A stretch of DNA of 37,850 nt from IMG/VR virus record IMGVR_UViG_3300045115_000082, positions 1-37,850 of that record; one strand, given 5' to 3'. The position numbers and the translations under genes are program-made. Each line of letters opens with the position of its first letter. Position 1 is the stretch's first letter. The notes beneath the pieces are model-generated. The model saw only the letters and a list, made by a program, of their open reading frames with translations, made no database searches and was not told the origin of the DNA. This document shows positions 240-29,762 of the stretch, piece after piece. The stretch is from a virus.

Positions 240-257
240 CGACGCGGGGAGTCGATG

Positions 258-1595
258 ATGCCCAAGAAGCGTGCCCACGGCGACGGCGGCCTGTACTACC
301 TCGAGAGCCGCAAGCTCTGGCGAGGCGTCATCGACCTGCCTCCCACCGACGACGGCCGGCGACGACAGGCCCAGGTGCACGCCCGGACCCAGCGGGCGTG
401 CAAGGAGAAGCTCGACAGCCTCCGAGCCGAGCTCAAGGCCAACGGCGGCCAGCCCCTCAAGAGGGGCCGCCGGCTAGACGACTGGGCAATCGAGTGGTTC
501 CGCGACTACGCACAGCCGAACCTCGACCCCAACACCTTCCGCAGCTACCGCGGTCTCTTCGACAACTGGGTCAAGCCCGCGATCGGCCGCAAGCCGGTCG
601 ACACGATCGAGCCTCGCGACGTCACCCGGGTGCTCCGCGACATCCGCACCGCCGGCCGCGCGTTGTCCACCTCGAAGTCGGCCTACATCGTCCTCGACAA
701 GATGCTCGAGGAGGCGCGCGTCCAGAAGCTCTGCGCCACCAACCCCGTCCGCGACGTCGCCCGACCTGGAGCAGGACGAAAGGCCAAAGGCAAGCAGCTG
801 CAGGTCGCACGTCAGCGCGACGCGTTCGATGCCGAGGTCGGCATGGCACTGCTCGCCGCGGCAGCGCAGCGCCGCAACGGCAGCATGTACTGGTTCAAGC
901 TCCTCACCGGTCCCCGGCAGGGCGAGATGCTCGGCGCGGTGCTCGAGGATCTCCACATCGACGAAACGACCGGCACCGGCGTGTACGAAGTGAATTGGAA
1001 ACTGGAAGAGCTCGCCTCCGACCACGGGTGCGGCCAGGTCGACGCCGACGGCACCTGGCCGTGCGGGAAGAAGCGCGGTGGCTCCTGCACACACCGCGTC
1101 TTCCGGGTGCCCGACGACTTCGAGATGCGTCAGCTCGACGGCCGCCTCCACCTCACCGAGCCGAAGTCCCAGACCGGCAAGCGCGTCCCGCTCATCGCCC
1201 CGCTCGTCGACATCATCCGGCGGGACCTCGCCGCCACCGCGCACCTGCCGAACCCGCACGGCCTCCTCTGGCGGCACGCCGACGGGTCGCCGATCCTGCC
1301 GCGCGAGGAGCAAGACGGATGGCGGTCACTGCTGGTGGAGGTCGGGTTCATCGAGCCCGAGCAGGCCATCCCAGGCGGCACCGAGTGGACGGGACACACG
1401 GCCCGGCACTCCGTCATCACCCTCCTGTACACCCTCGGCGTCGACGAGCAGCTCATCGGCGAGATCGTCGGCCAGTCGACCACCGAGGTGACCCGCAGCT
1501 ACCGCCACGCTCGCGACGAGGAGCGTCTCGCGGCCATGCAGAAGCTGGGGGAGCGGCTGCTCACCGAACTGCCCGAGCTGCCGGCCGCCGTCTAG
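258..1595 (+). CDS. int: Tyrosine-family site-specific integrase
   Basis: Phage integrase that would catalyse attP x attB recombination at the adjacent tRNA-Lys site and, with the excisionase, the reverse reaction. The N-terminal part holds an AP2-like arm-binding segment (about 5-60) and a SAM-like core-binding domain (about 70-170). The catalytic domain shows Arg in TGPRQGE (about 220), Lys in EPKSQTGKR (about 303), HTARHS (about 380-385) and the nucleophilic Tyr in RSYRHA (about 415). The usual LGH box reads VGQ, so the third His is Gln. A Cys/His-rich insert (HGCG, WPCG, SCTH; about 255-280) sits between the catalytic Arg and Lys, as in many actinophage integrases. ATG 258 lies 6 nt after GGGGAG; ATG 255 is possible but closer to it. 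The length of 445 aa is normal. Confidence 0.95.
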   Translation: MPKKRAHGDGGLYYLESRKLWRGVIDLPPTDDGRRRQAQVHARTQRACKEKLDSLRAELKANGGQPLKRGRRLDDWAIEWFRDYAQPNLDPNTFRSYRGLFDNWVKPAIGRKPVDTIEPRDVTRVLRDIRTAGRALSTSKSAYIVLDKMLEEARVQKLCATNPVRDVARPGAGRKAKGKQLQVARQRDAFDAEVGMALLAAAAQRRNGSMYWFKLLTGPRQGEMLGAVLEDLHIDETTGTGVYEVNWKLEELASDHGCGQVDADGTWPCGKKRGGSCTHRVFRVPDDFEMRQLDGRLHLTEPKSQTGKRVPLIAPLVDIIRRDLAATAHLPNPHGLLWRHADGSPILPREEQDGWRSLLVEVGFIEPEQAIPGGTEWTGHTARHSVITLLYTLGVDEQLIGEIVGQSTTEVTRSYRHARDEERLAAMQKLGERLLTELPELPAAV

Positions 1596-2130: not shown

Positions 2131-2880
2131 TCACGACTGGTCGTCCTCGGGGGGCCAGTAGTCGAGGAACTCGAGCCCTCCACGGCTCTGGTCGATGTCG
2201 TAGGCGTCGTCCTGCTCGCGCGTGACCCGCTCGTACTGCGACGGCTCGCCAGGATCGTTCGCGGCTAGAACGTGCTCTGGCGGGTTAGGTCCCTGGGCAT
2301 CGATGGACGAATCGCCCACTCGCCTATCGACCATCCGACGCATCGCCTGTACGAAATCGGCAACGAAGATGCCTTCCGGCCCCTCAAGGCTGTCGGCGAC
2401 GGTCCGCACATCCTCGGGAGTGACGAGGCCGCTCGCGGCGGCACTATCAAGGTCAGGCAGAAACTCGGTCAGCGCGCGCCATGTGGCGCGACGCTCATGA
2501 AGGGGGACGGCGCGGCACCGGCGCATCAACACCTCACTGATGGCCCCTTGAAGCCGGATGTCGTGAAGGTTGTGCAACGCCTCGACCGCAGCCCTGCCGT
2601 AAGCCCTCTCCCGCAGGTCGGAGCGACGGTTGCGTTCTTCGGCGCCGAGTCGGGCCGCGGTCTCGACCCGCTCGATGAAGGTCACGAGGTCAACCCGGAG
2701 CGCCCGAGCGATAGCCCAGGTCTGCGGCACGTCCGGCGTGGTATCACCGCGCTCCCAACGGCCCACCGTGTTCGGCGAAGCGCCAACCATGGCGCCGAGC
2801 TCGTCGCGGCTGAGCCCGCGCCGCCGCCGCCAGTAGACGATCTCGTCCCCCAGCGCACTGGTGATGTCGGGTTGGTCCAT
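2131..2880 (-). CDS. XRE/Cro-CI family repressor, probable immunity repressor
   Basis: A 249-aa protein. Residues about 10-70 form a Cro/CI helix-turn-helix domain, with the turn and recognition helix around LSRDELGAMVG-ASPNTVGRWERG (23-45). The remaining 180 residues are helical, then acidic, without a recognisable LexA-like Ser/Lys autoprotease motif, so repressor release probably depends on another factor such as the adjacent metallopeptidase. It is transcribed leftward, divergent from the Cro-like gene, across a palindromic operator. ATG 2880 is preferred over the upstream ATG 2937: a TACTGT -10 hexamer ends 6 nt before it, giving a leaderless mRNA, and the longer form would read through the operator. 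The specific phage-repressor role is inferred from position. Confidence 0.85.
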   Translation of the reverse strand: MDQPDITSALGDEIVYWRRRRGLSRDELGAMVGASPNTVGRWERGDTTPDVPQTWAIARALRVDLVTFIERVETAARLGAEERNRRSDLRERAYGRAAVEALHNLHDIRLQGAISEVLMRRCRAVPLHERRATWRALTEFLPDLDSAAASGLVTPEDVRTVADSLEGPEGIFVADFVQAMRRMVDRRVGDSSIDAQGPNPPEHVLAANDPGEPSQYERVTREQDDAYDIDQSRGGLEFLDYWPPEDDQS

Positions 2881-25635: not shown

Positions 25636-26190
25636 ATGTCCACGCACCGCCGCACCATCACCATCGACCTCTACCCCGGCGAGTACGAACAGCAGCTCGC
25701 CGAGGCCCTCGAGGCCGCGAACGACGCCGTCCGGCGCGAGGCCACCTCGCCCCGCCGCTTCGGTCAGGCATCCCCAGCGCTCGCCGCCGCGAAGGCGTTC
25801 GACGAGCTCCGCGACCACCCGCCCGAGCCCGTCGCCCGCGTCACCCTGTGGCAGATCGGCTACCTCGACTGGGACGACCTCGTCGCCCTGCCCGAGCACG
25901 AGCCGCGAGCCGACAACCCCAGCGACGCCCTCCACGGCGTCAACATGTCCACCTTCCCCCGGGCCGTCCTGCACGCCTCGCTCATCGACCCCGACGACGC
26001 GCGCAGCATCACCGCCCGGGTCAGCGCCGGCGAGCAGCGCCTGCGCGACCTCAGCCCCTCCCGCGTGCACTACACCAAGCTCGAGGCCGAAGCGTGGGCC
26101 GTGAACAGCGAGGAGCTGAACCTCCCAAAAGACTCGCTCGCCTCGCTGCTGACCCGGGCGCGCGGCGACGACTCCGAGCAGCGGAACTAG
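25636..26190 (+). CDS. Tail assembly chaperone G
   Basis: A 184-aa protein upstream of the tape measure. It contains W-x-GYLDWDDLVALPEHEPRADNPSDALHGVNMSTFPRAV, typical of actinophage tail assembly chaperones. The last 19 codons follow a slippery heptamer CCCAAAA (26124-26130); a -1 slip there yields the longer G-T protein. The chaperones coat the tape measure during tail polymerisation and are absent from virions. AGGAG lies before ATG 25636. Confidence 0.88.
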   Translation: MSTHRRTITIDLYPGEYEQQLAEALEAANDAVRREATSPRRFGQASPALAAAKAFDELRDHPPEPVARVTLWQIGYLDWDDLVALPEHEPRADNPSDALHGVNMSTFPRAVLHASLIDPDDARSITARVSAGEQRLRDLSPSRVHYTKLEAEAWAVNSEELNLPKDSLASLLTRARGDDSEQRN

Positions 26191-26606
26191 CCGGCGTCTC
26201 CCTCCGCGTCTTCGACGGCTGGGCGCCCACCCAAACCCACCAGCACTACGACGCCGACGGCGTCCTGACGGGCACCACGGTCGTCACGACCGAGCCGGAG
26301 TTCAACGACCGCCTCCGCGCCGAGTACCTCACCGCCGCTGCCCTCAAGGCCAACACCTGCCCACGATGCGGCAACTTCGACACCCTCATCGAGGTGCCAG
26401 CCGGTCGCCGCACGCTGACCTTCACCGACGGCGGCCAGGAGCGCGAGGTCGACGTCCGCCAGTACCGGTGCATCACCTGCGCCGCGAGCCAGCACGTCGA
26501 ACGCGTCTTCACCGACGCACACCGCAAGGACGAACGCAGCCTCGCGAAGGTGTCACCCGCCGATGGTCAGCAGTTCATCGCCGCGCCGATGTCAGGCGAT
26601 GGGTGA
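25636..26606 (+). CDS. Tail assembly chaperone G-T fusion produced by -1 frameshift
   Basis: Read as 25636-26130 joined to 26130-26606, giving about 323 aa. The first 165 residues equal protein G. The T part (158 aa) has no start codon with a ribosome site of its own and is open only from within G, so it is expressed only by frameshifting. T contains a four-Cys zinc ribbon, CPRC (242, 245 in the fusion) and CITC (279, 282), with strands between. In lambda, gpGT brings the tape measure to tail-tube subunits; the same is inferred here. It overlaps the convergent lipoprotein gene by 15 bp. Confidence 0.82.
26124..26130 (+). promoter_or_regulatory. -1 programmed ribosomal frameshift site CCCAAAA
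   Basis: The heptamer has the ideal X-XXY-YYZ form, read in the zero frame as C-CCA-AAA (Pro-Lys). After a -1 slip the ribosome reads CCC-AAA and continues with AGA-CTC-GCT in the frame that stays open to 26606. It lies 20 codons before the zero-frame stop, and the gene order (tube, G/T, tape measure) is where this frameshift is conserved in long-tailed phages. Confidence 0.88.
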
Positions 26607-27002
26607 CCCGGCGGCCTTGCAAGCGTCGCCCACTTCCTTGAGCCGCAGGTAGTAGGTCGACTGGCTGTCCGCCATCTCGATTCCCGTCGAAGCCGGGTCG
26701 CTATCGACTTCCAACATGCGCGCCACGGAGCGCATGTACCCCCTCAGCGCCTCTCCGTCCTCGCTCGGCAGGTCGCGCGTGGCGGCATCCAGGTTGCGGA
26801 CCACCGCGCGCATCCCGTCAAGTTCCTCGGCTGGCGTGGTTCGAGAGCCGTGACTCGACTCGTAATCGGCGACAAATTCGCACGCCGTCGGCACATCGGC
26901 ACTCGGCGAAGCGACCTCAGTGCCGCTTGAGCGCTCCTCCTCGCTAGAGCACGCGCTGAGCGCCGCGAGGCATGCCGCCAGGGCAACGGTCCGTTTCATC
27001 AT
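26592..27002 (-). CDS. Lipoprotein moron, candidate superinfection-exclusion or fitness factor
   Basis: A 136-aa gene on the strand opposite to all late genes, between the chaperones and the tape measure. The product has a lipoprotein signal: basic MMKR, a hydrophobic core, and lipobox LSAC with lipidated Cys18. A polar linker and a small helical domain with two further Cys (C41, C128) that could form a disulfide follow. It should be anchored outside the membrane. The -10-like TAGGCT (27009-27014 on minus) ends 6 nt before the first ATG, indicating its own leaderless promoter and expression in the lysogen. Lipoproteins of temperate phages often block superinfection (for example TP-J34 Ltp). 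No homologous family was recognised, so function is inferred. Confidence 0.8.
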   Translation of the reverse strand: MMKRTVALAACLAALSACSSEEERSSGTEVASPSADVPTACEFVADYESSHGSRTTPAEELDGMRAVVRNLDAATRDLPSEDGEALRGYMRSVARMLEVDSDPASTGIEMADSQSTYYLRLKEVGDACKAAGSPIA

Positions 27003-27008
27003 CCTCGC

Positions 27009-27014
27009 AGCCTA
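27009..27014 (-). promoter_or_regulatory. -10 box of the lipoprotein moron promoter
   Basis: TAGGCT on the minus strand fits TANNNT and is followed by GCGAGG and ATGATG, the same leaderless geometry (6 nt from -10 to start) as the repressor gene. GCGAGG could also serve as a weak ribosome site. No clear -35 was found. It lies in the 5' region upstream of the tape measure ribosome site on the other strand. Confidence 0.4.
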
Positions 27015-27044: not shown

Positions 27045-29762
27045 GTGCCTGACAAGACAGTTCGCGTAGTCCTCGACGGGGACGTCTCGAAGTTCAACCG
27101 TGCCATGCTCGGCGCAGCGGCCACGACGAAGGCGTTCTCGAACGAGCTCGACACGAGCACCGATCGGGCGGCGAACCTGACGCAGACGGCACTCGCCATC
27201 GCGCCCGCGCTCGTGCCGATCGCCACGGCCGCCGTGCCCGCGCTCGCGGGCCTGTCGAGCCAGCTCGCGATCACCGCAGCGGCTGGCGGCGTCGCACTCC
27301 TGACGTTCAACGGCATCGGCGAGGCCCTCAAGGCTGTCAACGACTTCCAGATCGAGCCGACCGCAGCGAACCTCGAGAAGCTGCAGAAGACCATGGCCGA
27401 ACTCGGCCCCGACGGACGCAACTTCGTCGGCTTCCTCCAGTCCATCCGCCCCGAGCTGCAGGGCCTCCAGGACGCCGGACAAGCGGGCATGCTCCCGGGC
27501 TTCGAGCTCGGCATCACCGAGCTGCTCGACCGCGGCCCCCAGGCTGAGCGGATCATCGGGAAGATCGCCGAGGCCGTCGGCATGCTCACCGCCGAGGCTG
27601 GCACAGAACTCGCCGGCCCGGAGTGGGACGAGTTCTTCACCTTCCTCGAGACCGACGCCAAGCCCACCCTCCTCGACACGGGCCGCGCCGTCGGCAACCT
27701 GACTGAGGGATTCGCTCAGCTCTGGATGGCCTTCGCCCCCACGAGCGCCAACTTCTCGAACTCCTTCCTCAACATGTCCCGCGACTTCTCCGAGTGGGCA
27801 TCAACGGTCGACGACACCGAGGGCTTCCAGGAGTTCCTCGCCTACATCGACGAGACCGGTCCGGAGGTGTGGGACACCCTCGGGGCACTCGCGAACGCAC
27901 TCCTGCAGATCGCCGAGGCCGCTGCTCCTGTCGGCGCCGCTGCGCTCCCGGTGATCGAGAGCGTCGCGGACACCATCGCGGTCATCGCCGACTCAGACGC
28001 CGGTCCCGTGCTCATCGGCACGGCCGCGGGCATCTCGGCCATTTCGCGGGCGGTGGCGCTCTACAACGTGGCGAACGGGTCCGCGCTCGCCACGCTGCTG
28101 AGCGGCACGCGCGCGGGCAGCTCGGTGCGCCAGGCGAAGGATCTCGGCTCGGCGTACCGCGAGTGGGGCAACGCGGTGGACTACGCCGCGATCCGCGCGC
28201 AGGGCGGGGCCGACCCCATCCAGCGCATGTTCACGGCGTTCGGCGGGGCGGGCAAGGTCGCTCTCGGAGTCGGAGCGCTCGCGTTCGCAGCATCCGACCT
28301 CGACGACAGCCTCGGCCTTTCGAACACCACCACCCTCGCCCTCGCAGGGTCGCTCGCGGGCCCATGGGGCGCCGCAGCGGGCGCGGCAGTCGGCATCACG
28401 AAGGATCTCGCGGCCACCACCGCCGGACTGACCGACGCGATCGACGCCGCGAACCGTGCAGCCGACGGCGGCAGCCTCCAGGAGCGCGAGGCGGCCATGG
28501 CCGCCCTGCGCGAGGAAGTCGAGAAGGCCGCCGCCGGCGAGGCTGGGTTCGGTCAGCGGATCGCGGACTGGGCCGACAGCGCCCGTGCCGCCGACCCGGC
28601 GACCGCTGGTCTCGCCACGCTCCTCGACCGCTTCACGACTTCCTCCGGCGAGGCGGGATCGCAGCTCGCCGAGCTCGAGCAGAAGCACAACCAGGCGCAG
28701 CGAGCAGCGCAGGACCAGGCGTTCGAAGAGGCCGGACTTGAGCTCGCAATGTTCAACGCCTCCGACGCCGCGCGCGAGCAGACCGAGGCCCTGCTGAGGA
28801 ACGCGGACGCGAAGAACGCGGCCCGAGACGCCGCGCTCGAAGCGCGAGCGTCCGAGCGCGACTACGAGCAGGCTATTGACGACGCGCGCAAGGCCGCACA
28901 GGAGAACGGCCGCACGCTCGACATCGACTTCGAGGCGGGTCGAAAGAATGAAGAAGCGCTCACTCGGATCGCAACGACGTGGGCGCGGGTCGACGACGCG
29001 ACGAAGAACATTCCGGGCACCTATGAGCGGGCCCGTGCAGCGTTCATCAGCACCGCCGAGAGCATGGGTCAGACTCGCCGCCAGGCGGAGGAGCTGGCCG
29101 ACAAGTACCTCCACTTGCCGCCCGTGGTCGAGACCAAGGTCCGCACGCCGGGGGCGACGAAGGCACTCGAGGTCATCAAGCTGCTGCAGGACGGGCTGAA
29201 CAACCTGAGCCCCTTCAAGGACGTCACTATCCGCACCACGCGGGAGAACGTCACGAAGAACATCAAGGTCCAGGGCGGCACGCAGACGGTCAACGCGGAC
29301 GGCGGCCTGCACATCAACGGCGTCCGCGCGTTCGCCGACGGCGGCCTCGACGAGTACGGCCGCCTGGTCGCCCGCGTCCCGCAGATGCGCTCCGGCTCCG
29401 AGGGTGTCGTCCAGTGGGGCGAGAAGGAGACGGGCTGGGAGGCGTACATCTCCGGCAAGCCCGGCCAGGAGCCCCGCAACCGAGCCGTGCTCATGGAGGC
29501 GGCCGGTCGTCTCGGGATGCTCGATCGTCTCGTGACGCGCCGGTTCGCGGAGGGCGCGTTCGTCTCGACCCCGCGACCCGCGGCCGAGGTCGCCGCGGCG
29601 CGTGCCGGATCTCAGGGGTCACGAGTGGTCGCTGCCGACCTCGTCGGCGGGCGGATCGAGATCGGCGCGGACGGGCTGGGGCGGCTCATCGACGGGCGGA
29701 TCGAGCTGGCGTTCGCCGCCGACGAGGACTTCGAAGACGCCAACCGAAGGGCAGGTCGCTGA
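27045..29762 (+). CDS. Tape measure protein
   Basis: A 905-aa protein, one of the two largest in the window, setting tail length; at the rule of thumb of about 0.15 nm per residue the tail would be roughly 130-140 nm. It opens with KTVRVVLDGDVSKFNRAMLGAAATTKAFSNELD, standard for actinophage tape measures. It has hydrophobic segments near 50-90 (LAIAPALVPIATAAVPALAG, LAITAAAGGVALLTF) and 330-460, and long helical stretches rich in Ala, Gln, Glu (about 480-650). The C-terminal part (GGLHINGVRAFADGGLDEYGRL and QWGEKETGWEAYI) is the conserved end of these proteins. GTG 27045 follows GGGAGGT. Confidence 0.93.
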   Translation: MPDKTVRVVLDGDVSKFNRAMLGAAATTKAFSNELDTSTDRAANLTQTALAIAPALVPIATAAVPALAGLSSQLAITAAAGGVALLTFNGIGEALKAVNDFQIEPTAANLEKLQKTMAELGPDGRNFVGFLQSIRPELQGLQDAGQAGMLPGFELGITELLDRGPQAERIIGKIAEAVGMLTAEAGTELAGPEWDEFFTFLETDAKPTLLDTGRAVGNLTEGFAQLWMAFAPTSANFSNSFLNMSRDFSEWASTVDDTEGFQEFLAYIDETGPEVWDTLGALANALLQIAEAAAPVGAAALPVIESVADTIAVIADSDAGPVLIGTAAGISAISRAVALYNVANGSALATLLSGTRAGSSVRQAKDLGSAYREWGNAVDYAAIRAQGGADPIQRMFTAFGGAGKVALGVGALAFAASDLDDSLGLSNTTTLALAGSLAGPWGAAAGAAVGITKDLAATTAGLTDAIDAANRAADGGSLQEREAAMAALREEVEKAAAGEAGFGQRIADWADSARAADPATAGLATLLDRFTTSSGEAGSQLAELEQKHNQAQRAAQDQAFEEAGLELAMFNASDAAREQTEALLRNADAKNAARDAALEARASERDYEQAIDDARKAAQENGRTLDIDFEAGRKNEEALTRIATTWARVDDATKNIPGTYERARAAFISTAESMGQTRRQAEELADKYLHLPPVVETKVRTPGATKALEVIKLLQDGLNNLSPFKDVTIRTTRENVTKNIKVQGGTQTVNADGGLHINGVRAFADGGLDEYGRLVARVPQMRSGSEGVVQWGEKETGWEAYISGKPGQEPRNRAVLMEAAGRLGMLDRLVTRRFAEGAFVSTPRPAAEVAAARAGSQGSRVVAADLVGGRIEIGADGLGRLIDGRIELAFAADEDFEDANRRAGR

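Follow-up and report, generated by a model that had tools for sequence, protein, structure and literature searches.

The interval between the tail assembly chaperones and the tape measure protein (TMP) recurs as an insertion slot in many actinobacterial phages, where unrelated membrane-anchored occupants share a common promoter geometry. In the virus sequence analyzed here (record IMGVR_UViG_3300045115_000082; its 37,850 nucleotides are referred to as the window), the slot holds a lipoprotein gene on the minus strand. Judged by its sequence, the product belongs, as a divergent representative, to a three-cysteine family of actinobacterial lipoproteins. We interpret the gene as a leaderless moron that would be expressed in the lysogen, and its lipid-anchored product as most likely excluding superinfecting phages at DNA entry, a reading of expression and function in which we place about even confidence.

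Lipoprotein gene and its genomic context

The phage is considered temperate because it carries an integrase and a repressor (Table 1). Most relatives of its terminase and capsid are actinobacterial, and an actinobacterial host is therefore likely. The palindrome ACACACCATATCTGGTGTGT, at positions 2910-2929 between the repressor and a divergent ORF at 2972, is a likely operator. In the tail region, the first chaperone frame divides the heptamer into C CCA AAA, which would suit a -1 frameshift. The extension provided by the second chaperone frame contains two CxxC pairs and is zinc-ribbon-like.

Table 1. Positions of the main features in the window
Feature	Coordinates	Strand	Remarks
Integrase	255..1595	+	PHROG phrog_1, E 3e-39
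Repressor	2131..2880	-	249 aa from ATG 2880; TANNNT-N6-ATG
First tail assembly chaperone frame	25636..26190	+	Position and frame overlap
CCCAAAA heptamer	26124..26130	+	In frame for -1 shift into second chaperone frame ending at 26606
Second tail chaperone frame	26131..26606	+	CxxC..CxxC; flanks the slot
Lipoprotein gene	26592..27002	-	136 aa; signal peptide 1-17, lipid Cys18, Ser/Glu-rich spacer, helical domain
-10-like hexamer TAGGCT	27009..27014	-	6 nt before lipoprotein ATG (leaderless geometry); relatives alike
TMP gene	27045..29762	+	PHROG phrog_6090, tail length tape measure protein, E 7.6e-9; flanks the slot

The lipoprotein gene starts with the ATG at 27002 and lies on the strand opposite to that of every late gene. 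The 438-bp gap that it fills extends from the stop of the chaperone frame at 26606 to the TMP start at 27045, and the gene overlaps the second chaperone frame by 15 bp. No plus-strand ORF of more than 49 aa is contained entirely in this gap. The G+C content of the three codon positions (0.64/0.55/0.80) matches the coding pattern of the phage. The lipobox is L-S-A-C with Cys18, and two more conserved cysteines are found in the helical domain, near residues 41 and 128. An AlphaFold2 model of the protein shows four helices with a mean pLDDT of 60, corresponding to modest or low confidence.

These data agree with a sequence-only reading of the window, which had proposed a minus-strand gene for a lipoprotein with an LSAC lipobox in an otherwise empty 438-bp gap: the 136-aa ORF, Cys18 and the gap were all recovered, and the phage-like codon-position G+C and the lack of a long plus-strand ORF inside the gap are in line with it. 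The small helical domain that it had also suggested is backed by the AlphaFold2 model at modest confidence, and better by a homologue from another phage (L113, pLDDT 82).

Promoter geometry in the window

TANNNT motifs are rare in the window, with 23 sites on both strands together. TANNNT followed by ATG after a 6-nt spacer (TANNNT-N6-ATG) occurs three times against 0.76 expected. Only three ORFs of at least 50 aa have TANNNT at a spacing of 6 or 7 nt. The spacing is 6 nt for the lipoprotein gene and for the repressor as read from ATG 2880, and 7 nt for the divergent ORF at 2972. The claim that TAGGCT precedes the lipoprotein ATG with the geometry of the repressor was thus exact, and no other ORF of 50 aa or more in the window has the N6 geometry. 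Neither a -35 hexamer for the lipoprotein gene nor, in a consensus scan blind to factor-dependent termination, an intrinsic terminator was found. The spacing supports assigning the gene its own putative leaderless-type promoter, as expected of a moron. TANNNT sites also show a strong strand bias over the whole window, with 4 on the plus and 19 on the minus strand.

The chaperone-TMP slot in related phages

Relatives were gathered by capsid and by TMP, since the window protein alone had no database homologue. In 100 nonredundant high-GC TMP loci, 250-bp bins from -4 kb to +5 kb around the TMP gene were scanned, with no protein filter, for minus-strand frames of 30 aa or more with TANNNT-N6-ATG. 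The 250 bp upstream of TMP contain 16 such ORFs, compared to 0-3 in each other bin, and each of the 16 products has a membrane span or a lipobox. Spacer lengths in the slot are concentrated at 6 nt (16 cases), followed by 7 (5), 8 (2), 10 (1) and 12 nt (1), while the distribution elsewhere is flat. We relied on this unfiltered count because start choice in a separate occupancy calling favored spacers of 6-8 nt. No shared -35 element was detected among the slot promoters.

The occupants are diverse. For instance, in the closest relative of the window phage (L003, 75% capsid identity) the slot is taken by a membrane ORF of 44 aa on the minus strand, also with TANNNT-N6-ATG, whose product is unrelated to the window lipoprotein. 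Many slot proteins are membrane proteins of 35-86 aa with little exposed sequence, and annotated reverse genes occur in the slot of the isolated Arthrobacter phages TripleJ (gp17) and Hestia (gp18). In relatives that have no slot gene, only 4-26 bp separate the chaperone from TMP; the window gene is thus inserted between genes that in relatives are adjacent or flank a different gene. Even phages with 85% identical TMPs may differ in occupancy, as in L107, with a gap of 21 bp, versus L117. On the 100-tip TMP tree we counted at least 24 occupancy changes, an approximate number as some relatives scored empty may hold undetected genes; about ten occupied calls that represent doubtful antisense frames were also scored empty in this tree. 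Overall, the slot behaves as a moron site with rapid turnover, and the comparison of related phages, with its empty slots, alternative genes and 24 occupancy changes, bears out the earlier proposal of a moron-like insertion.

A strict link between slot genes and a temperate lifestyle was considered and proved non-discriminating: an integrase is present in 12 of the 13 occupied records longer than 35 kb that were scored and also in most gene-less ones. The three reverse slot genes of the Gordonia phage Periwinkle (gp17-19; L259:1-1207) have no obvious membrane anchor, and gp18-19 may be misannotated. A related phage record (L027:1434-1793) encodes a 119-aa lipoprotein on the plus strand upstream of the capsid gene.

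The three-cysteine lipoprotein family

Homology searches with the window protein retrieved nothing from phages, plasmids, viral contigs or genome contigs and gave weak matches in sampled genomes, while sequence searches of Pfam, PADLOC, NCBIfam and PDB returned no family. Lipoproteins of 130-137 aa are found among the slot occupants (L113, L116, L153 and L180). The first three, which are the clear family members in the same slot of other phages, form a family with genomic relatives, characterized by the lipobox cysteine and two conserved mature cysteines in invariant columns.

Similarity in MAFFT and hhalign comparisons that included the signal peptide was not taken as proof of membership, which was assessed by a mature-domain HMM with controls. 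The mature domain of the window protein scored 22.4 bits against the seven-member HMM (E 5.7e-9 for one sequence), above the leave-one-out score of the accepted member L239 (18.1). The remaining lipobox controls reached at most 4.4 bits (L180 being the best), except for L240, which looks like a further family member. None of 4938 cysteine-fixed shuffles attained the score of the window protein with a six-member HMM. Profile comparison agrees with membership, part of its signal being due to the signal peptide, as the control with the phage lipoprotein Ltp indicates. Two other slot lipoproteins were not accepted as clear members. L180 is a possible member only, at 7.2 bits with the six-member HMM, a score that some shuffles reach, and 4.4 bits with the seven-member HMM. 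The Cellulomonas denverensis prophage L212 encodes a different lipoprotein of 166 aa, located in the slot on the minus strand and starting 36 bp upstream of TMP.

L113 is predicted with good confidence to form a helical bundle, and the four helices predicted at low confidence for the window protein follow the same order. Fold searches yielded generic four-helix bundles only, none of them convincing. The statement of the sequence-only reading that the family was not recognized stands after homology search and structure prediction.

The other family members are host chromosomal and occur in Micrococcales and other actinobacterial genomes. Another member, from a genome of the Microbacterium murale family sample (L257:7698-8126), follows tail and lysis-like genes close to an apparent prophage end and is located outside any tail slot. 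Because members are chromosomal and one is found at such a location, phages probably captured a host lipoprotein. The leaderless geometry extends beyond phages, as TANNNT-N6-ATG is also present at the genomic members L256 (8092) and L258 (7825).

Proposed function and alternatives

According to the preferred interpretation, a host-type -10 promoter would yield a leaderless mRNA of the lipoprotein gene. As the gene would have its own host-type promoter, it is expected to be active during lysogeny, when the late operon would be silent. After export, the product would be lipid-anchored at Cys18 and presumably exposed on the outside of the membrane, where it would form a small bundle of helices in which a disulfide probably links the two conserved cysteines. 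There it would most likely keep the TMP of an incoming phage from crossing the membrane, possibly as a substitute for a factor of the host envelope.

Exclusion at DNA entry is judged the likeliest function on three grounds: the unrelated slot proteins have nothing in common but their membrane anchoring and a promoter of the lysogeny type, a proven exclusion protein (gp15 of HK97) resides in the same slot, and Ltp is a phage lipoprotein that acts on TMP. Specificity for a particular TMP is not evident, since the same lipoprotein family occurs with unrelated TMPs and in host chromosomes. As a tentative extension, the slot could represent a dedicated exchange site of temperate actinobacterial phages for leaderless, membrane-anchored exclusion proteins that come from many unrelated families and are expressed by the prophage, and the window lipoprotein could be a captured host lipoprotein that serves as a decoy for the host factor with which TMPs open the membrane.

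The best-surviving alternative is lysogenic conversion, in which a captured host envelope protein benefits the lysogen apart from exclusion and the slot is a merely tolerated site. The chromosomal occurrence of the family in Micrococcales and other Actinobacteria, as well as the member near a prophage end outside any tail slot, fit this explanation. However, the strong preference for the position next to TMP and the anchoring of unrelated proteins suggest a shared job linked to entry, and we regard lysogenic conversion as possible but doubtful. Insertions at the slot may also just be tolerated without any functional relation to TMP, and the same picture would result.

Receptor masking is a further candidate. 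The lipoprotein Llp of phage T5 blocks adsorption by covering a surface receptor, and a surface lipoprotein of a temperate phage with its lipid anchor on the outer face could act likewise. However, the short domain would sit near the membrane beneath the thick actinobacterial wall, and many slot proteins are membrane proteins of 35-86 aa that expose little sequence; masking is thus improbable. Still less probable is an accessory gene for lysis or tail assembly expressed in the lytic cycle. It would account for the location within the late operon and for weak PHROG matches to Rz-like spanins, but these matches fall mainly on the signal-peptide end, the strand is opposite to that of all late genes, and many relatives lack a slot gene. 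Finally, the frame might be open by chance, since GC-rich DNA (here 69% GC) commonly contains long antisense frames, but this is very hard to reconcile with the codon-position G+C, the family membership of the mature domain, the promoter geometry and the recurrence of the slot.

If exclusion at DNA entry is correct, a fixed and easily recognized position in actinobacterial phages would provide a catalogue of candidate anti-phage proteins, most of them shorter than 90 aa. Phages of E. coli and of Actinobacteria would independently use the spot adjacent to TMP for the same purpose, and the membrane crossing of siphophages would become testable through many natural inhibitors.

Comparison with known systems

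HK97 gp15 is a proven superinfection exclusion protein (PMC10883804). Its gene occupies exactly the same slot, with the tail chaperones (gp13/14) on one side and the tape measure gene on the other, and it likewise encodes a small membrane-associated protein. In contrast to the window gene, it is on the same strand as the late genes and is followed by an annotated terminator; the 62-aa product has a membrane span and no lipobox. No homology to the window protein was detected (hhalign probability 0.1%).

Ltp of the Streptococcus phage TP-J34 is a lipoprotein that excludes superinfection and targets the tape measure protein (PMC3952083, PMC10883804). Both are phage lipoproteins of similar size, with a lipid anchor and a Ser-rich spacer, represented in the window protein by LSAC and a Ser/Glu-rich stretch. 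However, the ltp gene belongs to the lysogeny module beside the integrase, a two-fold repeat is visible in Ltp and was not seen in the window protein, and their alignment covers the signal peptide only.

In Actinobacteria, Gordonia phages of cluster DN have reverse genes between the tail chaperones and TMP, with no function given (PMC9476921), and TripleJ gp17, in the same slot and orientation, is annotated as a membrane protein. The slot genes of the DN phages, TripleJ and Hestia belong to protein families other than that of the window lipoprotein and have no function given. The suggestion of an undescribed actinobacterial exclusion protein accordingly holds in part: it is plausible and the family was unrecognized, whereas the slot itself was partly known from HK97 gp15 and the Gordonia DN phages (PMC9476921). 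As far as the literature searched shows, the new elements are the wide occurrence of the slot in actinobacterial phages, a leaderless promoter geometry common to its genes, products that are consistently anchored in the membrane, and the lipoprotein family.
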